A stretch of 64,000 bases of DNA from Gammaproteobacteria bacterium (GTDB taxonomy: Bacteria > Pseudomonadota > Gammaproteobacteria > Pseudomonadales > Pseudohongiellaceae), in assembly GCA_030828385.1 (NCBI GenBank), contig JAURCS010000005.1:1-64000 (forward strand), read 5' to 3'. Positions 46,805 through 64,000 of this stretch are shown here, piece after piece. How positions within the stretch are numbered: position 1 is the stretch's first letter; the number at the start of each line of letters is the position of its first letter. The notes under the pieces are model-generated. The model made no database searches. It saw nothing but the letters and a program-made list of their open reading frames with translations, and had not been told where the DNA came from. The translations under genes and the position numbers were made by a program.

Positions 46805-48469
46805 ATGAGATACCCCCCTGGTGTCAGCCAGAACGATTTTGACAGAGCGGTAAATCAGTTTGAAGCCGCTATAGGCAGTGAATGGGTATTCACTGACGAA
46901 GTGGATGTCGACCTCTACCGGGATGCCTACTCGCCCTTGTGGGGCGAGGAAGAGGAAAAAATCCCCTCCATCGCCCTGGCGCCCCAGTCTGCAGAAGAGG
47001 TGCAGGCATTAATGCGACTCTGTAACGAATTTCGTATTCCTGTTTATCCCGTATCCACCGGTAAAAATCTGGGCTATGGCGGATCGGCGCCCGTGCTCAA
47101 TGGCAGCGTGGTGCTTGATTTGAAACGCATGAACCGGATTATAGAGGTCAGTGAGGAAAATGCCTTTGCTCTGGTAGAACCGGGCGTGTCCTATTTTGAC
47201 CTGTATAACTATATTCAGGAGAAGGGGCTCGATCTGTGGATTGACTGTCCCGATCCCGGCTGGGGCAGCCTGATTGGCAATTCCCTGGACCATGGCGTGG
47301 GTTATACCGTGAATCCCTATCGTGATCATTTCGAGGCCCACTGCGGTATGGAAGTGGTGCTGGCCGATGGTGATCTGGTACGTACCGGCATGGGGGCCAT
47401 GCCCAATGCCGAAACCTGGCAACAGTATCGCTGGGGTTATGGGCCCTGGCTGGATGGGCTGTTCGCCCAGTCCAATTTTGGCGTGGTCACCAAGATGGGC
47501 TTTTGGCTGTATCCGGCGCCCGAAGCCTTCCGTTCCGGTTCGGTGCAGGTGATGGGTTACAACGATGTCCATGAGCTGACACGGGTGACGGCAAAGATGA
47601 TGTATAGCGGTATTCTCAATACCAATGCCGGCGTGCAGTCACCAATGCAGTTTGTGCTGGGACAAAACCAGGAGATGCAGGAACGCTATGAGCGCGCCAA
47701 CGCCGAAGATATTCGCATCCTTGATGAATTTGCGCAAAGCAACAACACGCCGTTCTGGAGTTCTTCCTTCAAGTTTTACGGGCCACAGGAAATCGTGGAT
47801 AGCTCCTGGGAATATGTGAAAAAACAATTTGCTCATATTGAGGGTGTGTCTTTTCAGGATCAGGAAGCGCTTCAATTTCCCATGCCCTATGAAGAGCTGA
47901 TGCAGACTTCAGACGAAAACCATTTGGGCGTACCCTCCATGTCTGTATTCCAGCTGGGTAACCGCTCCAACTTCAATCCGGCCGGGACCAACGGTCATCT
48001 TGGTTTCTCACCCGTAGTGCCCATGACCGGGGAGGCAGTACTGCAGGCCAATAAAGTACTGGGTAGGGTCTTACGTGATATGGGCGGCAATACAGTATTT
48101 AATGTGCCTCCCTATTCCTATCACCAACGTACCTTCACGATCCTGATTGGCTTCACCGTAAGCCGCGATACCGATACCAACCAAAAGACCCGCGAGATTT
48201 TTCGGGAACTGGTCAAAGTGGCGGCAGAAAATGGCTGGGGAGAATACCGTACCCACACCGCTTTTATGGATGATTGTGCGGCTACCTATTCTTTCAATGA
48301 CAATGCATTGCTGCGCTTGCAGCAACGTCTCAAGGATGCCATCGACCCCAATGGCATTATTTCAGCGGGTCGCTATGGTATTTGGCCTAAACATATTCGT
48401 GATGAAGAGGGGAAGGGGATTGCCGATACAAACTCTGCCAGGGACGATCAAGGAGGCAGTAATGTATAA
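46805..48469 (+). CDS. FAD-linked oxidase of the p-cresol methylhydroxylase / vanillyl-alcohol oxidase family
   Basis: A 554-residue flavoprotein with the FAD_binding_4 PP-loop (YPVSTGKNLGYGGSAPVLNG), SLIGNSLDHGVGYT and a C-terminal VAO-type cap and tail (DPNGIISAGRYGIWP). The family oxidises 4-alkylphenols at the benzylic carbon, forming a quinone methide that is then hydrated. Here the 3' end overlaps a c-type cytochrome gene by 8 bp, the same partnership as PchF-PchC, so electrons probably leave through that cytochrome and not to oxygen. There is no signal peptide in this subunit, also as in PCMH. The ribosome site is AAGGA. Substrate is not determined. Confidence 0.85.
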   Translation: MRYPPGVSQNDFDRAVNQFEAAIGSEWVFTDEVDVDLYRDAYSPLWGEEEEKIPSIALAPQSAEEVQALMRLCNEFRIPVYPVSTGKNLGYGGSAPVLNGSVVLDLKRMNRIIEVSEENAFALVEPGVSYFDLYNYIQEKGLDLWIDCPDPGWGSLIGNSLDHGVGYTVNPYRDHFEAHCGMEVVLADGDLVRTGMGAMPNAETWQQYRWGYGPWLDGLFAQSNFGVVTKMGFWLYPAPEAFRSGSVQVMGYNDVHELTRVTAKMMYSGILNTNAGVQSPMQFVLGQNQEMQERYERANAEDIRILDEFAQSNNTPFWSSSFKFYGPQEIVDSSWEYVKKQFAHIEGVSFQDQEALQFPMPYEELMQTSDENHLGVPSMSVFQLGNRSNFNPAGTNGHLGFSPVVPMTGEAVLQANKVLGRVLRDMGGNTVFNVPPYSYHQRTFTILIGFTVSRDTDTNQKTREIFRELVKVAAENGWGEYRTHTAFMDDCAATYSFNDNALLRLQQRLKDAIDPNGIISAGRYGIWPKHIRDEEGKGIADTNSARDDQGGSNV

Positions 48470-48791
48470 GGCATTGATTCTGCTTGCCAGTGTATTGATA
48501 AGTGCAGGAACACTGGCGCAGTCCGGCGACCCGGCTAATGGCAAAGCCGTCTACGAACACTGGTGTTCACCTTGCCATGCCCCGGGTGCTCGCAAACATC
48601 CGGGAACAGCAGCACTGGAGTTTCTCTACAAGGGTGAAAAACCCTCAGTGCTGGAACAGCGTCTCGACCTGACGCCGACTTTGGTGGCAACCTTTGTCCG
48701 CAACGGGGTGAAAATCATGCCGCCTTTTCGCAAGACGGAAATAAGTGATAAAGAGCTATCCGATATCGGCGCTTACCTGTCCCCAAGATAG
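48462..48791 (+). CDS. Periplasmic cytochrome c, partner of the flavoprotein
   Basis: A 109-residue protein with a signal peptide (cleavage near TLA-Q) and a single heme site C35-S-P-C38-H39. A methionine in KIMPPFRKTE is the probable axial ligand. It starts inside the end of the flavoprotein gene (ATGTATAA) behind a strong AAGGAGG, so the two are translated together. It corresponds to the PchC subunit of p-cresol methylhydroxylase, which accepts electrons from FAD and passes them to azurin or another cytochrome (family knowledge). Confidence 0.88.
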   Translation: MYKALILLASVLISAGTLAQSGDPANGKAVYEHWCSPCHAPGARKHPGTAALEFLYKGEKPSVLEQRLDLTPTLVATFVRNGVKIMPPFRKTEISDKELSDIGAYLSPR

Positions 48792-50719: not shown

Positions 50720-51811
50720 TTAGGTCTGTACTGAGAGCAGGATTTTTTTCATTACATGATCTGGCGAAATGTCTTTCATACAACGATGCTGGTGCAAACA
50801 ATGACCCTTGTTACAGGCCGGGTCACAGCTAAAGTCTCCCCGTACAATCTTGCTTTGCTGACCAAGTGGCCCCCAGATTTCATCGTTAGTGGGGCCGAAT
50901 AATACTAAACCAGGCAGGCCCAGTGCGGAACCCAGATGGAAAGGCCCGCTGTCGTTGCCTACCATCAAGGCACAGGTATTCATGAACTGTCCCAGTGCCA
51001 CCAGCGACAGTCTGTTACACAGATCAAGGGGAAGGGAATCGATGCCCGCCGTTTGCAACTGTCGCGCTATTTCCTGGTTGGCATTTTCATCAACACTTCC
51101 TGCACCCAGCAGCACCGGCTGCAAACCGGCAGCCATTATTTTTTCCACCAGCACAGCCATACTGTCGACTGGCCAGCGTTTATAGTCCTTCGTCGCTCCG
51201 GCATGAATGGCGATGGTTTTTAACTGAGGGTTCCAGCCCCACTCACGTAATTGTCCTGTCAGGGTGTCGGGAAGCGTGCCAGGGTTCATTTTCAAATACG
51301 TTTTTTCAGGTTCCGGCATTCCGAGAGCGTCGAACACATCAAAATAGCTATACCAGCGATGGCTTCGTGCAGGTTCACGGTTTTCAAACTGAACCGGAAT
51401 TACCGCATCGTAACCACTGCGATGGCGGGTGGCGCTGCAACCGAGTTTATAGGCGGCCCCGGAAAGTCGGGTCAAATGGTTGGTGGCAGAATCTTCTTCG
51501 ATATTGAAGGCAATGTCCGGCTTGAAGGCACGAATCTCCTTCAGACAGGCACGGTACAGGGAGATTTTTTTAAACAGACCAGACTGACTAATTTTCCTGC
51601 GTGGGAAAAAGATCAGGCTGTCAGCGGGAAAGCTGTTTTCACAAAGTGCGAGAAAGCCTTCATCAATGACAATTTTCAGTTGAATGCCCTGATCCTGGCA
51701 GTAGCGGGCATAGGCCTGCATCAGGCCGCCCGCCAACAATAAATTGCCCAGGTACTTGGTCGGGTTAACCAGTACTATTCGTTGAGGATTCTTGGGGACA
51801 GGTTTATTCAC
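50720..51811 (-). CDS. Glycosyltransferase family 9 (heptosyltransferase-like)
   Basis: A 363-residue GT-B enzyme of the ADP-heptose transferase superfamily. N-domain: RIVLVNPTKYLGNLLLAGGL. C-domain: IAIHAGATKDYKRWPV and the nucleotide-sugar motif LMVGNDSGPFHLGSALGLPGLVLFGPT, followed by the cysteine-rich SCDPACNKGHC and HRCMKDISPDHV seen in many GT9 proteins. It probably adds a sugar to lipopolysaccharide core on the cytoplasmic face. Its start overlaps the end of the HAD phosphatase gene by 8 bp with AGGA as ribosome site, so the two form one unit. Confidence 0.88.
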   Translation of the reverse strand: MNKPVPKNPQRIVLVNPTKYLGNLLLAGGLMQAYARYCQDQGIQLKIVIDEGFLALCENSFPADSLIFFPRRKISQSGLFKKISLYRACLKEIRAFKPDIAFNIEEDSATNHLTRLSGAAYKLGCSATRHRSGYDAVIPVQFENREPARSHRWYSYFDVFDALGMPEPEKTYLKMNPGTLPDTLTGQLREWGWNPQLKTIAIHAGATKDYKRWPVDSMAVLVEKIMAAGLQPVLLGAGSVDENANQEIARQLQTAGIDSLPLDLCNRLSLVALGQFMNTCALMVGNDSGPFHLGSALGLPGLVLFGPTNDEIWGPLGQQSKIVRGDFSCDPACNKGHCLHQHRCMKDISPDHVMKKILLSVQT

Positions 51812-52652
51812 TGTCCTGGTAAAGTGCCATCAGTTCACCCACATTGGTAACGGAGATATCCGGCCAGGTTGCCTGCGGTCGGTCATCAAAGGCATTGGGA
51901 CCGCCGGTACCGGTATGCACATAAATGGCAAGAGCACCGTTATTTTTTGCCATCGGGACTTCAAGGTCGGCGTCATCACCGACAACGGCGATCTCGCTTA
52001 CCTCCAGGCCCAAATGCCGTGCCGCACTTTCAATGGCATGGGAAGAAGGTTTACCAAGCACGATGGCGTCTTTGCCAGTCAAGGGTTTCAATGCCGCCGC
52101 CAGCGCGCAGGAAGTGCCGATGCCGGGACCGTTGGCGGTGGCAAAAAAAGGCACATCGGAGGCGGTATATAATTCTGCACCAGCCTTGATTGCGAGCCAG
52201 GCATTCTCTATATCCTTAAAACCAAACTCGCGATACCAGCCAATATAGACGGCGTCGACCGGGCCAGGATTTTCAATACTCGATAACACAACCTCAAGGC
52301 CGAGATCAGCCAGAGGCTCCCACACACCGGGACAGCCCAGCACCATGATGCGTTTGTAGCCTTGCTTGACCAGATAGTCAGCAGCCACGCTGCTGGGGGT
52401 CATCATGGTGTTTTCGTTCATGGGAATGCCTGCATCGCTAAGCACCCTCACATAGTCGGAAGGGGAGCGTGCGGTGCCATTGGTCATCACCACATAGGGA
52501 ATGCCTTTATCCTTAAGCAGATTGATAAAATCTGCGGCACCGGGCAGCATCGCCATATTGTTGTTTTTCTTGTCGCCAAGAATCAGTGTGCCATCCATAT
52601 CGAAAACAAAGCCCTTCACTCGGGCAAGTTTGTCATTCATTTGATTAGTCAT
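51804..52652 (-). CDS. HAD-IIA family phosphatase (NagD-like)
   Basis: A 282-residue HAD hydrolase. Motif I is FVFDMDGTLILGD, motif II VVMTNGTARSP, motif III lysine in VLGKPSSHAI, motif IV VVGDDADLEVPMAKN. The C2 cap between motifs II and III places it with NagD/AraL-type sugar-phosphate or nucleotide phosphatases. The substrate is unknown. It is translationally coupled to the GT9 gene downstream, which hints at a sugar-phosphate role in the same pathway. Confidence 0.88.
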   Translation of the reverse strand: MTNQMNDKLARVKGFVFDMDGTLILGDKKNNNMAMLPGAADFINLLKDKGIPYVVMTNGTARSPSDYVRVLSDAGIPMNENTMMTPSSVAADYLVKQGYKRIMVLGCPGVWEPLADLGLEVVLSSIENPGPVDAVYIGWYREFGFKDIENAWLAIKAGAELYTASDVPFFATANGPGIGTSCALAAALKPLTGKDAIVLGKPSSHAIESAARHLGLEVSEIAVVGDDADLEVPMAKNNGALAIYVHTGTGGPNAFDDRPQATWPDISVTNVGELMALYQDSE

Positions 52653-57822: not shown

Positions 57823-58269
57823 TTATTGGGGAACCGCGGAATTATGAAACTGGATAATTTTCCAGGTGCCGTTGCGCAGGGCAAGCACCATGCTTACCCG
57901 CAGCGGCGTGCCTTCACTCTGACCGCTCGGAACCACTTCCCACATGCCTGAAATGGCCACCAGATTGTTGCCTATCTCGACACTCTCATAGTCCCGGGCG
58001 CGGGCAACAGTCTGCCCCGGTGGGTTGCGTCCAACCGGTTCAAAATATAAGGCGACTCCTGCCGGATCGGTTACCAGTGATTGCGATCCGGTTCCCCAGA
58101 ACAGGGCATCTTCAGAAAACAGACTGGTAACAACTTCCATGTCAGTATTGGTCATGGCATCAAGGAACTGTTCGAATACTGCTGCAGCTTCAACTTCGGC
58201 ATCACTTTGAGCCTGTAGTGATGCTGGCAGCCCGAATAACAATAGTATGGACGTGACGAAAATTTTCAT
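57823..58269 (-). CDS. Exported NTF2-like (SnoaL/DUF4440-type) protein
   Basis: A 148-residue protein with a signal peptide (cleavage near LQA-Q) and an alpha+beta NTF2 cone fold: VFEQFLDAMTNTDMEVVTSLFSEDALFWGTG, then LVAISGMWEV and RNGTWKIIQFHNS. Such domains form dimers with a pocket and may be catalytic or purely binding. It begins only 4 bp after the carboxyltransferase stop on the same strand, so it is the last gene of the carboxylase cluster and may handle a related small molecule outside the cytoplasm. Confidence 0.8.
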   Translation of the reverse strand: MKIFVTSILLLFGLPASLQAQSDAEVEAAAVFEQFLDAMTNTDMEVVTSLFSEDALFWGTGSQSLVTDPAGVALYFEPVGRNPPGQTVARARDYESVEIGNNLVAISGMWEVVPSGQSEGTPLRVSMVLALRNGTWKIIQFHNSAVPQ

Positions 58270-58273
58270 TGGC

Positions 58274-59743
58274 TTACCGGTTTAATGTTAGTTTGAAGTT
58301 TTTCTGACTGACAGAAAAATTCGCTGGTGATTTTTTTCCTTTAGCGTGATGCAGTCCTTTCAATAGCTGCAGCACTGGTGAAATGGCCGGGTTGTAGTGG
58401 AGATCATCAGGTGAGCGGGTACGCATGGCATCCACCTGATCTACCGGCATTACTGCGCGCAATAAGAACTCTTCATCAGACATGCGCTTTGAAAACTGCT
58501 TGCGTCTGTCCTTCAGGGTCATGGTGATCGGTTCTTTTTCTATTTCTTTGGTGCGTGGCAGAGACATGATCCGGTCCAGCACATTTTGATCCACTGGTGC
58601 CGTGGGGCGTCCAAAACGTCCCAATACATATCGTATTGCCTGATCCGGTATCTGTTCATAGCGGCCGTCACCCATAACATTGAACATGGCCTGGGTAGTA
58701 ACGATCTGGGGAAATGGGGTAACCATAATGGGGGAGCCCAGTTCTGCCCGGACTCGTTCAACTTCCGCCATAACCTCATCAAACTTGTGCTCCAACTTTA
58801 ACTCAGCCAGTTGTCTGCGGGTGGTGGTCAATACGCCGCCGGCTACCTGGTGGCGCAGGTAGGAGGCATCGTAGGCCTGAGGTTTACCGACCGCCAGGCC
58901 TTCGGCTTTTGCCAGGCCAAAGTAGTAGTCTTCCAGTTGTTTTAGCGCGGTTTCATTAACATCCACAGTGTGGCCGTGGGTTTTCAGATTGGCAATAGTT
59001 TGTGTAGCGCAGGGTAATGAAGAGCCATGGGCCAGCGGGCCGATCGCCACATGCAGCGCATTAATACCCAGCTCGGCGCCCACCATGTAGTTGAACTGGG
59101 ACAGGCCAATGGTGCAATGGGAGTGAAGCTCCAGCGGCAGACTACCGATTTCCTTTTTCACGGCCGGAATCAGGGTACGCGCTCTCTCCGATGTCAGCAG
59201 ACCTGAAGGATCCTTGATATAGAGCAGGTCAAAGTCACCGGATGCCGCAATCTGTCTGGCGCAGTTGGCATAAAAGGCATCATCGTGGACATCGCTCAGG
59301 GTATAGGTCAGCGCCGCCATGTTTTCGGCATCGCCTTCCTCTTTCACAATGCGGGCAACCTGCATCAGGGCATCCATGTCATGCATGGGATCAAGCAGGA
59401 CAAAGCGGCCGATACCGTTTTTCATCAGGGTTCTGTAGGCCAGCCGCATGAAATCATGATCGGCAGTTTCCCAGGAGATAAAACGAAAACCGGTAGAAAT
59501 AAATTGTAGCGGTACATTGGGCAGGGCCTGGTGCATCAGACGTATACGTTGCCACGGATCATCCTGGTGATAGCGCACGCCGACCGCCATATGGGTACTG
59601 GAAGTAAAGTCGATGGCACGAAAGCCAACCCGTTCCATCAGCGGCGCCGCCTGCATCATCTGGTGCGTGCCCATACCGGTCATGCTCCACATGCATTGGT
59701 TGCCATCGCGGATACTGACATCCACCAGTTTTATATCAGCCAT
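58274..59743 (-). CDS. Biotin-dependent carboxyltransferase, OadA/PycB-like, diverged
   Basis: A 489-residue HMGL-type TIM barrel (VDVSIRDGNQ, metal-binding Asp; the metal-site lysine in YIKDPSGLLTSE) plus a C-terminal conserved-carboxylase domain (GGVLTTTRRQLAELKLEHKFDEV, GSPIMVTPFPQIV). There is no biotinyl domain, and a separate carrier protein is encoded upstream. The usual H-x-H-D-T metal motif reads HSHCTIG here, and the RDxHQSLLATR loop is replaced by RDGNQCMWSMTGM, so the acceptor may not be pyruvate. The ATG at 59743 has GGAG upstream. The ends overlap the biotin carboxylase gene by 8 bp. Confidence 0.82.
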   Translation of the reverse strand: MADIKLVDVSIRDGNQCMWSMTGMGTHQMMQAAPLMERVGFRAIDFTSSTHMAVGVRYHQDDPWQRIRLMHQALPNVPLQFISTGFRFISWETADHDFMRLAYRTLMKNGIGRFVLLDPMHDMDALMQVARIVKEEGDAENMAALTYTLSDVHDDAFYANCARQIAASGDFDLLYIKDPSGLLTSERARTLIPAVKKEIGSLPLELHSHCTIGLSQFNYMVGAELGINALHVAIGPLAHGSSLPCATQTIANLKTHGHTVDVNETALKQLEDYYFGLAKAEGLAVGKPQAYDASYLRHQVAGGVLTTTRRQLAELKLEHKFDEVMAEVERVRAELGSPIMVTPFPQIVTTQAMFNVMGDGRYEQIPDQAIRYVLGRFGRPTAPVDQNVLDRIMSLPRTKEIEKEPITMTLKDRRKQFSKRMSDEEFLLRAVMPVDQVDAMRTRSPDDLHYNPAISPVLQLLKGLHHAKGKKSPANFSVSQKNFKLTLNR

Positions 59744-61115
59744 TGGCAAGTTCTCCTGCAGGGGTGGTGTCCAGCATTTGCTTTAAAAAACGCGTATCCA
59801 CACCGCCTTCTATAAATTCCCCGGTTGCCAGAATGGCCTGATGTAAAACAATGTTGCTTTCAACCCCTTCAAGATGACATAGCGCCAGCGCATGTTGCAG
59901 GCGTACTATCGCTTCGGTGCGATCCTCGCCCCAGACAATCAGCTTACCAAGCAGGGAATCATAATAAGGTGGTACCGTGACACCGCTTTCTATATGTGTG
60001 TCTATTCTGATACCGGGCCCCGCAGGGAATTGTGCTCTGATTACTTTGCCAGGGCTGGGCTGGAAATCATTCTGGCAGTCTTCAGCGTTGATTCGACACT
60101 CAATAGCATGACCATTGAAAATAATATCACTTTGGCTCATGCCCAGAGGTCGACCTTCGGCGACGCGTATTTGTTGGGCAACAAGATCGAGGCCCGTAAT
60201 AGCCTCAGTAACCGGATGCTCCACCTGGATGCGTGCATTCATTTCCAGAAAATAAAAACTGTTACGCTCGACATCGACCAGAAATTCGACGGTTCCGGCG
60301 CCCTGATAGTCGAGGTGTTGAGCAAACGCTACAGCAGCACTTTGCATTTCTTCGCGCAAGTCATCATTAAGACAGGGGGCCGGTGCTTCTTCCACCAGCT
60401 TCTGATAGCGTCGTTGGATCGAGCAGTCACGGGTGCCGAGATGGATGACCTGCTTGCCATCGCCCAGTACCTGAACTTCCACATGTCGACCACTGGCGAC
60501 GAAGCATTCCAGATAGATGCGATCATCATTGAAGGCATTTTCCGCTTCTGCGCGCGCCAGGGTCATGGTTTTTGCCAGATCAGCCACATTATGAACTACC
60601 TGCATTCCACGGCCACCGCCGCCGCCTACGGCTTTGATAAGTACTGGATAACCAATTTCAGCCGCCAGTGGCTCCGCTTCCTGGGGGGTATTCACCGAAC
60701 CGCCGGGAACGATAGGCAGATTGGCCGCTACAGCATTTTCACGCGCTTTGAGTTTGTCACCAATAGCATTGAGCTGGGCTACGGTTGGCCCAATAAAAAT
60801 AATGTTATTGTCTGCGCAGGCCTGGGCAAGCGCAGCATTTTCCGAAAGAAAGCCATAGCCCGGATGAATAGCATCAGCCCCGGTCTGCAATGCTGCCTGT
60901 AGCACAGCGTTTACATTCAGATAACTTTGCAGGGAAGGAGGTGGACCAATTTTGATTACCTGATCTGCCATACGGGCAGGGACAGAATCCAGGTCAGCTG
61001 CCGATGCCGCCAGCACAGTTTCAATACCCAGAGTCTGACAGGTTCGAATTATACGAACCGCAATTTCACCGCGGTTCGCTATGAGTAAACGGTTAATCGA
61101 GTTCACGGCAGCCAT
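59736..61115 (-). CDS. Biotin carboxylase
   Basis: ATP-grasp enzyme that carboxylates the biotin on the carrier protein using bicarbonate. The 459-residue product has NRGEIAVRIIRTCQTLG, HPGYGFLSENAALAQ, the Gly-rich loop KAVGGGGGRGM, and the catalytic NARIQVEHPVTEAITGLDLV. Its ATG overlaps the stop of the carrier gene (TGATG). It is AccC-like, but it is grouped with a PycB/OadA-type transferase and not accA/D, so it probably serves a dedicated carboxylase. A diverged ATP-grasp fold or missing residue was not noticed. Confidence 0.92.
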   Translation of the reverse strand: MAAVNSINRLLIANRGEIAVRIIRTCQTLGIETVLAASAADLDSVPARMADQVIKIGPPPSLQSYLNVNAVLQAALQTGADAIHPGYGFLSENAALAQACADNNIIFIGPTVAQLNAIGDKLKARENAVAANLPIVPGGSVNTPQEAEPLAAEIGYPVLIKAVGGGGGRGMQVVHNVADLAKTMTLARAEAENAFNDDRIYLECFVASGRHVEVQVLGDGKQVIHLGTRDCSIQRRYQKLVEEAPAPCLNDDLREEMQSAAVAFAQHLDYQGAGTVEFLVDVERNSFYFLEMNARIQVEHPVTEAITGLDLVAQQIRVAEGRPLGMSQSDIIFNGHAIECRINAEDCQNDFQPSPGKVIRAQFPAGPGIRIDTHIESGVTVPPYYDSLLGKLIVWGEDRTEAIVRLQHALALCHLEGVESNIVLHQAILATGEFIEGGVDTRFLKQMLDTTPAGELANG

Positions 61116-61582
61116 CAAGAGGGTCTGACTCGCATTAACAGTTGCCCTTTTTCAACAAACTGCGCATCTGTAACAAGAATTTCAACGATCTCACCGTTGA
61201 GACCGGCAGGAATAGAGTTCATCAGTTTCATCACTTCAATGATGGCAATGACACTGTCCTCATTAACATTGGAACCAATTTCGACGAAGGGATCGGCGCC
61301 GGGTTTCGGCGCATTGTAGAAAGTGCCTACCATGGGCGCACGAATATCCAGCAGACCTTCTTCAGTGGCAGCCGTTTCAATGGTGGCGTTCCCGTCGATG
61401 CTTGCAACAGTGCTGGTGACTGCCGACTTGTCGCTTGCCACGGTGTTCATTTGCTGCGTCCAGCCTTCTTCATCCTGCTGTAATTTAAGGGTGAAGTGCT
61501 CGGTTTCCAGAGTCAATTCCCTGTAATCAGTTTCTTCCAGTAAGCGCAGAATTTCCTGTACATCTTTGTGACTTAAACTCAT
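61115..61582 (-). CDS. Biotin carboxyl carrier protein (AccB-like)
   Basis: A 155-residue carrier. The N-terminal helix region (MSLSHKDVQEILRLLEETDYRELTL) resembles AccB, followed by a flexible Thr/Ala-rich linker and the biotinyl domain with the thumb-bearing APMVGTFYNAPKPGADPFVEIG and the biotinylation site EVMKLMN. BirA encoded at 5233 in this window would modify that lysine. The start overlaps the preceding gene (ATGA). Confidence 0.93.
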   Translation of the reverse strand: MSLSHKDVQEILRLLEETDYRELTLETEHFTLKLQQDEEGWTQQMNTVASDKSAVTSTVASIDGNATIETAATEEGLLDIRAPMVGTFYNAPKPGADPFVEIGSNVNEDSVIAIIEVMKLMNSIPAGLNGEIVEILVTDAQFVEKGQLLMRVRPS

Positions 61583-62664
61583 TTACTTTTATTGTCCTTG
61601 ATTAATTGGGAACCCATTACGTTGAAAATATGGTCGTAGGCTTTAGCTGCAGGTTTGGCCACAGGTGCCTTGTCTTTTGTTGCCCAAACGGTTTCCGGAC
61701 GACTCTGGAGTAGCAATACACTGTTATTTTCATTACCGGCGCTGTCATGGGATATAGCCCATTCAATATCCTGAGCGCAGCCATAGTGTTTTTCCACGCG
61801 ACGGGCGATTTCAGTCAGCTCCCTGATTTCCTCATTACTGAGACAGGAAATCACCTGGCGTTCTTCCTCCACTGGCCTTTCAATAATACCGCCTTTCTCA
61901 TCAGGAAGGTGCTCGATAGCCTTGGGTGCAATATTTTTGCCGGTAATTTCACTGGTGATCTTGTTGACCACAAATTTGTCCGGAGTTACCTCGCCGCTGA
62001 CGATGCTGGAACCCAGTCCCCAACTGCCTTCAATCGTAACAACAGATTTGTCTCCGCTGGTGGGGCTGCGGGTAAACATGACTCCAGAGCAACGCGAGTT
62101 CACCATGGTCTGCACGACGACGGCCATGGCCAGATCTTCCTCGGGAATATTAAGCCGCAGGCGATAGGCAACAGACTCGGGGTTGTAAAGACTGGCCCAG
62201 CAGCGGCGCACGGCATCCAGCAGTTGCGCTTCGCCTTTTTGCCATAAGTAGGTGTCCTGTAGTCCGGCAAAACTGGCCTCTTCACTGTCTTCACTGGTCG
62301 CGCTGGAACGAACGGCTACCGGGATATTATCACCTAGGCCGCGATAGGCATCAGTAATGACTTGAGCCAGGGATTCCGGTGGTGGAGATTTTTCTACCAG
62401 GGCGCGCATGTCACTGGTGACGCTGTTCAGTGTCGTCACATCATCTGGATCCAGCGCAACTATTTTTTGGCGAATACCATATTCCGCATCAATGATGTCC
62501 AGATAGGCTTTAAACGCCTCGGTAGTAATCACATAACCATTCGGTACGTTGATACCGGCACTACATAATTCGCCCAGGCTGCCGCCTTTGCCGCCAACGA
62601 GAGGGCGGTCGGCAAGGGATAGGTCCTTAAACCAAAGAATGGAATTCTGAGTATCTTGTGTCAT
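61579..62664 (-). CDS. PEP synthase-like ATP-binding subunit (PPDK N-terminal domain only)
   Basis: The ATG at 62664 gives 361 residues (MTQDTQNSILWFKDLSL). The whole protein corresponds to the N-terminal nucleotide-binding domain of PEP synthase: GGKGGSLGELCSAGINVPNGYVIT, AVRSSATSEDSEEASFAGLQDT, RCSGVMFTRSPTSGDKS, and it stops after LQSRPETVW with a short tail. There is no phosphohistidine domain and no PEP-binding barrel. The missing His domain is in a separate gene at 63505. That is the layout of phenylphosphate synthase (protein 2, about 40 kDa, is this part). The ATGA overlap with the biotin carrier gene ties it to the carboxylase. Confidence 0.88.
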   Translation of the reverse strand: MTQDTQNSILWFKDLSLADRPLVGGKGGSLGELCSAGINVPNGYVITTEAFKAYLDIIDAEYGIRQKIVALDPDDVTTLNSVTSDMRALVEKSPPPESLAQVITDAYRGLGDNIPVAVRSSATSEDSEEASFAGLQDTYLWQKGEAQLLDAVRRCWASLYNPESVAYRLRLNIPEEDLAMAVVVQTMVNSRCSGVMFTRSPTSGDKSVVTIEGSWGLGSSIVSGEVTPDKFVVNKITSEITGKNIAPKAIEHLPDEKGGIIERPVEEERQVISCLSNEEIRELTEIARRVEKHYGCAQDIEWAISHDSAGNENNSVLLLQSRPETVWATKDKAPVAKPAAKAYDHIFNVMGSQLIKDNKSK

Positions 62665-62799
62665 CTTTTTTATATTTTTTCTGGATGTAAATGGAATTTG
62701 CTTCAGTCGAAAAAGAACCAAATAATATTGTCTACATTAGAACAAAGTTACCTCTATTAAACAAAAAATTTAATAGCCCTCCCGGGTTTATAGTGGCTT

Positions 62800-63242
62800 T
62801 CACCTGTTTATTCGTAAGGGTAAAGGCGCATTGTGCTTTTGCCGCTGCATGGTCAGCAGGTTTCGGCAACGCACCTGGCACTCATGAATATCCACCGGTT
62901 TAACAAGAAAGTCTGTGGCGCCTGCTTCCAGCGCGTTATACAGTGCTTCCCTGTCTTCCAGTGCGGTTATGATGATGGGGATATCGTTGAATTGGCCGGC
63001 AGCACGAACTTTCTCTATAAATTGTACGCCATCCATGGCCGGCATTTGATAGTCGGTTAAAATCAGATCAGGTTTGCTTGTTTCCGGGGCTTGCAGTGCG
63101 GAAATCGCATTATCGAAGGACATGACCTAAATCTGCTCATCAATGGTCCTGGCAATGCTCTCCATTATGATGCGGCTGGTAGCCTGGTCATCGATGATGA
63201 AAACTATATTTTTTCGTTTTCCTCACTATGGACTTGGTTCAT
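62800..63242 (-). pseudogene. Response-regulator receiver domain, broken
   Basis: The intact portion (63123-62800) encodes the phosphoacceptor region LILTDYQMPAMDG, the switch TALEDRE and LVKPVDIHE. Upstream in the same frame the sequence reads FIIDDQATSRIIMES...DEQI, the missing start of the receiver, but an amber TAG (63127-63129) interrupts it. Further up the frame is lost near an A/TA-rich run at about 63204-63218. The likely original start is ATG 63242 (MNQVHSEENEKI), which becomes out of frame by two bases there. The product also ends right after the receiver (CRNLLTMQRQ), where RpfG-like proteins would continue. It lies between the two halves of the PEP-synthase-like enzyme. Confidence 0.75.
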
Positions 63243-63504
63243 GGGTGTTGTCTCAGAGGCCAGATTTACCTGTCGTGCTTATTTCTCAATTGCGTCCATG
63301 CAACGCCTTATTTAATGAAAGATTCACTGAAAATCATCAGGTTAACTATTGATTATTGGTATGCGTCTGACTCTCAATCCGCAGTTAAGCTGAGTTTGAT
63401 CCGCAGCTTCAGACACTGCTGACGAAACATGCATGAAGCTCTGCGTAATTTACCACAGACGCTTCATACATGAGTGCTTAAAGGCAACAAATTTGACGAC
63501 AGGT

Positions 63505-64000
63505 TTAACTGTCAAGAATAGTGACTGTACCAGTATCCCCATCAACTCTGATTTTTTGACCGTCCTTAATGCGCTTGGTGGCTGATCCGGTGCCTACTAC
63601 CGCTGGCATGCCGTATTCCCTGGCGACAATTGCCATGTGGGACATGGTGCCGCCTATATCTGATACGGCTGCACTGATTTTGCTGAACAGCGGGCTCCAG
63701 CTGGGGTGGGTAATGGGACATACCAGAATATCGCCTTCGTTGATTGAGCCGAATTCATTGATACTGCGCAGAACTCGAGCAACGCCCTCGACAACACCGG
63801 GGGAGGCTGCATAGCCAATTATTTCATTTTCGTTCTGTATCGCAGGTGCCGCCCAGTTATTCAGGGTTTCTTTCGTGATACCCCAGAGCATCTGCAGGGC
63901 AGGGTCTTCAATATTGTCCGGCATTGGCCCGATGGCGGGTGGTGCCTGCCACTCCTTCAATACTTCAAGCATGCGGCGGCGTTCGGTAATGATGGGGGGC
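63505..64000 (-). CDS. PEP synthase-like phosphohistidine (swivelling) subunit, partial
   Basis: The 3' end of a gene that continues beyond the window; the frame is still open at 64000. The visible part is the PEP-utilising mobile domain: AASPGVVEGVARVL, GDILVCPITHPSW, and the phosphohistidine site DIGGTMSHMAIVAREYGMPAVVGTG. It ends 43 residues after that histidine without a PEP-binding barrel, in the way I recall for protein 1 of phenylphosphate synthase. It should accept the beta-phosphate from ATP bound on the partner encoded at 61579-62664 and hand it to the substrate. Confidence 0.85.
   Translation of the reverse strand, partial: PPIITERRRMLEVLKEWQAPPAIGPMPDNIEDPALQMLWGITKETLNNWAAPAIQNENEIIGYAASPGVVEGVARVLRSINEFGSINEGDILVCPITHPSWSPLFSKISAAVSDIGGTMSHMAIVAREYGMPAVVGTGSATKRIKDGQKIRVDGDTGTVTILDS

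Follow-up and report, generated by a model that had tools for sequence, protein, structure and literature searches.

A gene cluster at the far end of the 64,000-nucleotide stretch analyzed here is likely to encode a catabolic system for hydroxyphenylethanones of the type known as Hpe/Acv. The stretch (hereafter "the window") comprises positions 1-64000 of contig JAURCS010000005.1 (C105 in our set) from the 2.62 Mb genome of a gammaproteobacterium of the family Pseudohongiellaceae (GCA_030828385.1). The analysis establishes which gene families are present, their key residues, their kinship and their linkage, and we infer every reaction and the substrate from characterized relatives. The chemistry is not new: the system is already known and is found here in another lineage. 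The initial annotation of this DNA had taken the cluster for an undescribed carboxylation system, a claim that does not hold, as HpeHI and HpeCBA were characterized in 2022-2025 (PMC9618137, PMC12167813). What it proposed at heart, that a phenol or ketone is phosphorylated with ATP and then carboxylated with biotin, fits the Hpe/Acv pathway, and one of its chemical guesses came close. The Hpe/Acv pathway is thereby extended to a gammaproteobacterial genus, all seven searched genomes of which carry HpeH, and a testable substrate is offered for genes that generic models call phosphoenolpyruvate (PEP) synthase, acetyl-CoA (coenzyme A) carboxylase and pyruvate carboxylase. Among the literature matches listed, including those for hydroxyphenylethanone with 4-ethylphenol or marine, we found no description of the pathway for this lineage.

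Acetovanillone is a lignin compound, and in the pathway described in 2022 hydroxyacetophenones are phosphorylated and then carboxylated toward hydroxybenzoates (PMC9618137, PMC12167813). The genes hpeHICBADEF were described in Rhodococcus rhodochrous GD02 (PMC9618137). According to that report, HpeHI phosphorylates acetovanillone and 4-hydroxyacetophenone, the biotin-dependent HpeCBA acts on the phosphorylated ketones only, carboxylating them, and HpeD takes off the phosphate; the roles proposed for HpeE and HpeF are to form a CoA ester and then to release acetyl-CoA. Expression of the GD02 carboxylase in E. coli did not succeed (PMC9618137). The same paper reports the acvABCDEF genes of Sphingobium lignivorans SYK-6 to be homologous and syntenous with the hpe genes. 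The dikinase mechanism and the structure of HpeI (PDB 9GOJ) are presented in PMC12167813.

The initial annotation's five tightly spaced genes are borne out as five open reading frames (ORFs) at 57823-62721, all on the minus strand and each above its own Pfam cut-off. In order of transcription, they encode an HpeI-like ATP-grasp subunit of the PPDK_N family (61579-62721; PF01326, 347 bits), an HpeC-like biotin carboxyl carrier (61115-61582; PF00364, biotinyl Lys119 in VMKLM), an HpeA-like biotin carboxylase (59736-61118; three biotin carboxylase domains), an HpeB-like carboxyltransferase of the PYC_OADA/HMGL type (58274-59749; PF02436 and PF00682) and a SnoaL/NTF2-like protein (57823-58269; PF13474). 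As called, successive genes share 4, 4 and 14 bases, and a 4-base gap precedes the last one. The ATGA-type overlaps proposed earlier are therefore plain at the first junction only, since the second and third overlaps hinge on a TTG start. The His-domain half of the kinase does lie just upstream, as had been claimed: reading the contig past position 64000 gives an HpeH-like gene of 605 amino acids at 63505-65322 (minus strand), of which only 63505-64000 is inside the window, encoding the C-terminal part with the swivel domain and the catalytic His (PF00391, 86.7 bits). The 783 bases separating the kinase halves (62722-63504, minus strand) contain a reading frame for a response-regulator-like receiver domain, interrupted by an in-frame stop; with its genes as called, the closest relative, L027, has a spacer of about 215 bases.

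The cluster thus has the two-part dikinase arrangement, an ATP-grasp subunit and a subunit with a C-terminal His swivel domain, adjoined by a three-part biotin-dependent carboxylase with a PYC_OADA-type transferase. The top PDB match of the HpeI-like subunit is HpeI itself (9goj, 288 bits; runner-up 235), with 46% identity over 333 columns. In the HpeH-like subunit, which is 56% identical to its Rhizobium leguminosarum homologue, the motif SDIGGTMSH places the catalytic residue at His562 with a Met two residues earlier. As described in PMC12167813, Met at this position is the phenolic-dikinase pattern, whereas PEP synthase has Thr. The biotin carboxylase is 59-67% identical to linked homologues in L012, L017, L018, L019 and L020, and the carboxyltransferase 43-61% identical to those in six other loci.

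The domains are also homologous to those of central metabolism, and generic models match the cluster proteins to PycB/OadA, AccC/AccB and PEP synthase; the carrier, with 126 bits against a cut-off of 115, and the carboxylase, with 623 against 597, pass as acetyl-CoA carboxylase parts. One could accordingly read the cluster as a PEP synthase of the ordinary kind, split in two, beside a simple pyruvate carboxylase or an oxaloacetate decarboxylase, together cycling pyruvate, PEP and oxaloacetate, and the initial annotation had offered such a regeneration as an option. We consider this extremely improbable. The carboxyltransferase falls under every listed PycB and OadA equivalog cut-off (248 vs 718 and 244 vs 734 for models of its own length); the HpeH-like subunit has the PF00391 swivel domain as its sole Pfam domain, with no PEP/pyruvate-binding domain; and a separate 863-amino-acid pyruvate phosphate dikinase is encoded about 6.4 kb beyond the HpeH-like gene. 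In the HpeI-like subunit, PF01326 is the sole Pfam match. Cut-offs for full-length PEP synthase were left unused, as they are out of reach for half an enzyme. We rejected plain pyruvate carboxylase with PEP synthase on the basis of the cut-offs and the missing PEP/pyruvate-binding domain; the proposed regeneration is not supported.

The linkage of kinase and carboxylase is conserved. We compared the 80 best of 466 confirmed loci, picked by likeness to the carboxyltransferase of the window, so that counts among them are not prevalences. A kinase or kinase half is present in all 63 loci with at least 6 kb of upstream sequence: HpeH with HpeI in 24, a Tm-1-like protein in 37 and HpeI alone in 2. 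Seven of the 80 lack a kinase match; the upstream sequence ends within 2 kb in six of them and at 5.5 kb in the seventh, L084. In L028 and L066, HpeI and the carboxylase occur with no HpeH match above threshold upstream. Of the 77 loci with at least 1.2 kb downstream, 68 have a homologue of the HAD phosphatase, and in 61 the distance between it and the transferase gene is no more than 500 bases. The annotated row in R. leguminosarum comprises the kinase halves, carrier, carboxylase, carboxyltransferase, HAD phosphatase, acetoacetate-CoA ligase and amidohydrolase, and homologues of these genes stand consecutively in Rhodococcus JS3073. The initial annotation had named plain enzymes in an unconserved linkage as the finding that would speak against it; we found a conserved linkage and a carboxyltransferase that fails the PycB/OadA cut-offs. 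Across 58 genomes, HpeH was found in 11: seven of seven in the genus (our own included), four of five in one other genus of the family, and none of the 46 others. In a random draw from the class, a transferase match at E 1e-60 occurred in 6 of 274 genomes, our own included, with only 33-39% identity in four of the five others. According to an earlier survey cited in PMC13101465, the kinase clusters with the carboxylase in 52 of 836 cases.

A quick HpeH tree of 35 rows, 30 of them carboxylase-linked, places 29 of these 30, the window included, in one clade (SH-aLRT 99). Outside it fall two rows linked to P450, one row each from Thermomicrobium and a haloarchaeon, and a PpsA encoded next to ppc genes. 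One record in the tree, L034, is titled Klebsiella pneumoniae (a metagenome-assembled genome); its HpeH is 80% identical to that of the window and groups with uncultured Gammaproteobacteria, and the record is probably mislabeled.

The kinship with PpsA brings in phenylphosphate synthase, to whose Thauera type the initial annotation had likened the split kinase while noting the different carboxylase; the likeness fits. HpeH is 44% identical to PpsA of Azoarcus KH32C. It might then be argued that the enzyme phosphorylates phenol and that the biotin carboxylase is an unrelated neighbor, but we assign this hardly any probability. The KH32C PpsA adjoins a CBS protein and the genes ppcA, ppcB, ppcD and ppcG, none of which has a counterpart among the ORFs listed in the neighborhood of the cluster (no ppc search covered the remaining genome). 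The pairing of biotin carboxylase with the two-part kinase recurs, moreover, in the 24 of 63 loci given above. On this neighborhood, with no ppc-type carboxylase genes among the ORFs listed around the kinase, we rejected a Pps/Ppc identity.

Two relevant features of the window lay outside the initial annotation. The first is the HpeD-like HAD phosphatase gene (51804-52652, minus strand), whose product is 41% identical to the R. leguminosarum HAD protein. The second is a flavocytochrome (46805-48791, plus strand), consisting of a flavoprotein like p-cresol methylhydroxylase and vanillyl-alcohol oxidase (46805-48469) and a small c-type cytochrome in an overlapping gene (48462-48791; CSPCH motif; PF13442, 56 bits). 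The best PDB match of the flavoprotein is p-cresol methylhydroxylase (9h40, 600 bits), followed by an unnamed oxidoreductase (470) and vanillyl-alcohol and eugenol oxidases (384 and below). In the 4-ethylphenol route of Aromatoleum aromaticum EbN1, as described in PMC10715001, the methylenehydroxylase EmhCF and 4-hydroxyacetophenone are followed by a carboxylase, the acetoacetyl-CoA-ligase-like AcsA1 and a predicted thiolase. The flavocytochrome could be a maker of the ketone. Flavoprotein homologues above 100 bits occur in the fetched stretch of 7 of the 80 loci, five of them at 35-47% identity, a count for which there is no background rate; the association with the cluster is a weak link.

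Elsewhere the genome encodes PobA (637 bits, cut-off 539), adjacent LigA and LigB, both above cut-off, a gallate dioxygenase, two VanA_C proteins above cut-off, and an acetoacetate-CoA ligase above cut-off that is 47% identical to the R. leguminosarum one. An intradiol dioxygenase was considered and rejected: it is of the catechol type and under all equivalog cut-offs, and LigA with LigB fits better. These genes also bear on whether the same phosphorylation-carboxylation chemistry might serve a different phenolic ketone, for instance a 4-acylphenol with a longer chain, in a system that is Hpe-like but not for hydroxyacetophenones. In the HpeH tree the window's group, of 11 rows, branches separately (support 100), and the nearby p-cresol-methylhydroxylase-like enzyme could accept other 4-alkylphenols. 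However, PobA and LigAB suit 4-hydroxybenzoate as the end product, and the characterized members, as described in the papers cited here, are known to act on acetophenones; we regard a different ketone as unlikely.

Several observations weigh against the Hpe/Acv assignment. The residue directly preceding His562 is Ser, not Cys; PMC12167813 gives Ser for PpsA and CreH and Cys for HpeH of GD02. The carboxylase-linked HpeH of L021 falls outside the clade, and the HpeH tree has long end and deep branches; as several end branches are long, its deep order is unsure. The HAD gene stands 5.6 kb from the carboxyltransferase gene, paired with a heptosyltransferase-like gene. Its copy looks displaced rather than unrelated, because in the relative L032 a HAD homologue starts 15 bases past the transferase gene and is followed by a heptosyltransferase-like gene as in the window. 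The ligase could have the ordinary function of an acetoacetate-CoA ligase. Neither an HpeF-like amidohydrolase (one protein query, which proves little) nor a BKACE (a model that rings in 1 of 14 control genomes) was found in the genome, which leaves no enzyme assigned to the step that cleaves the beta-keto acid or its CoA ester; a thiolase was not searched for. The relative L035 has an HpeF-like amidohydrolase (55%) about 2.6 kb from the transferase gene. Finally, among the proteins of GD02, SYK-6 and EbN1, only HpeI was compared by sequence, and the others are likened by description.

Under the Hpe/Acv assignment, HpeI would bind ATP and phosphorylate His562 of HpeH, which would pass the phosphate to the phenol oxygen of a 4-hydroxyacetophenone. 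HpeC, HpeA and HpeB would then add a carboxyl group to this phosphorylated ketone at its acetyl methyl, using biotin, ATP and bicarbonate, and the HAD phosphatase would release a 4-hydroxyphenyl-beta-ketopropionate. A CoA ligase, for which the acetoacetate-CoA ligase is the candidate, and a thiolase or hydrolase would yield 4-hydroxybenzoate, to be degraded by PobA and LigAB. Given the flavocytochrome nearby, one source of the ketone may be 4-alkylphenols. The SnoaL/NTF2-like protein is not a constant partner of the cluster: of the 11 nearest loci, 4 have a homologue above 60 bits, and the 69 others have none. Its N-terminus, judged by eye, resembles a signal peptide, and the protein may be exported.

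Carboxylases of this clade occur beside differing kinases and phosphatases. In 39 of the 80 loci, many from sphingomonads, a Tm-1-like (UPF0261) protein replaces the kinase beside the same carboxylase (e.g., L018:4972-6204 and L019:5886-7133). Two of the plasmid records with this variant are from a strain named Sphingomonas bisphenolicum and from the bisphenol A degrader Pseudomonas putida YC-AE1. The Tm-1-like protein may be a kinase of the type of MarK, a single-component kinase reported in Novosphingobium aromaticivorans (PMC13101465), and in view of that report we dropped the idea that the variant is new. Among the literature matches listed, no paper names "Tm-1-like" or "UPF0261" with bisphenol, hydroxyacetophenone, acetophenone or carboxylase. 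As to the phosphatase, no HAD match was found in L033-L037 among these 80 loci. A calcineurin-like phosphatase gene overlaps the end of the transferase gene, in the usual place of HAD, in L035 (11473-12213; Pfam scan) and L036 (11470-12210), and one lies farther away on the opposite strand in L033 and L034. L022:1139-10768, L013:3628-10846 and L015:1638-10679 hold a sibling cluster in which a PPDK-like kinase, compact and single-chain, is joined by carrier, carboxylase and transferase behind an AMP-dependent ligase; the transferase of this cluster is 33-38% identical to that of the window, and L022 adds a thiolase and a tyrosine phosphatase. Tentatively, and with more doubt than confidence, we propose that an aerobic 4-alkylphenol pathway is a conserved trait of the genus, combining an EmhCF-type flavocytochrome, the Hpe kinase and carboxylase, and PobA/LigAB with a non-HpeF cleavage; that a calcineurin-like phosphatase stands in for HpeD in distant relatives; and that the carboxylase is the fixed core around which kinase and phosphatase are exchangeable.

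The closest known system is Hpe of GD02, which, as described in PMC9618137 and PMC12167813, shares the two-part dikinase (HpeI 46% identical), the three-part biotin carboxylase and the HAD phosphatase. It differs in that here the phosphatase gene stands apart, no hpeF homologue was found, a flavocytochrome is nearby, and the carboxylase genes read in the order carrier, carboxylase, transferase. Acv of SYK-6 has kinase, carboxylase and phosphatase genes, likened by description (PMC9618137, PMC13101465), and there too the final steps are encoded elsewhere in the genome (PMC13101465). Pps/Ppc has a homologous two-part dikinase with a large subunit 44% identical, but its carboxylase is Ppc, which is not homologous to HpeCBA according to PMC9618137. 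Rifampin phosphotransferase and PEP synthase share the ATP-grasp and His swivel domains but are single chains, and PEP synthase has an extra substrate domain that is missing from HpeHI (PMC12167813). With EbN1, as described in PMC10715001, the genome shares a p-cresol-methylhydroxylase-type enzyme, a 4-hydroxyacetophenone carboxylase and an acetoacetyl-CoA-ligase-like enzyme; however, that route is anaerobic and ends at 4-hydroxybenzoyl-CoA and benzoyl-CoA, whereas PobA and LigAB here imply an oxygen-dependent end.

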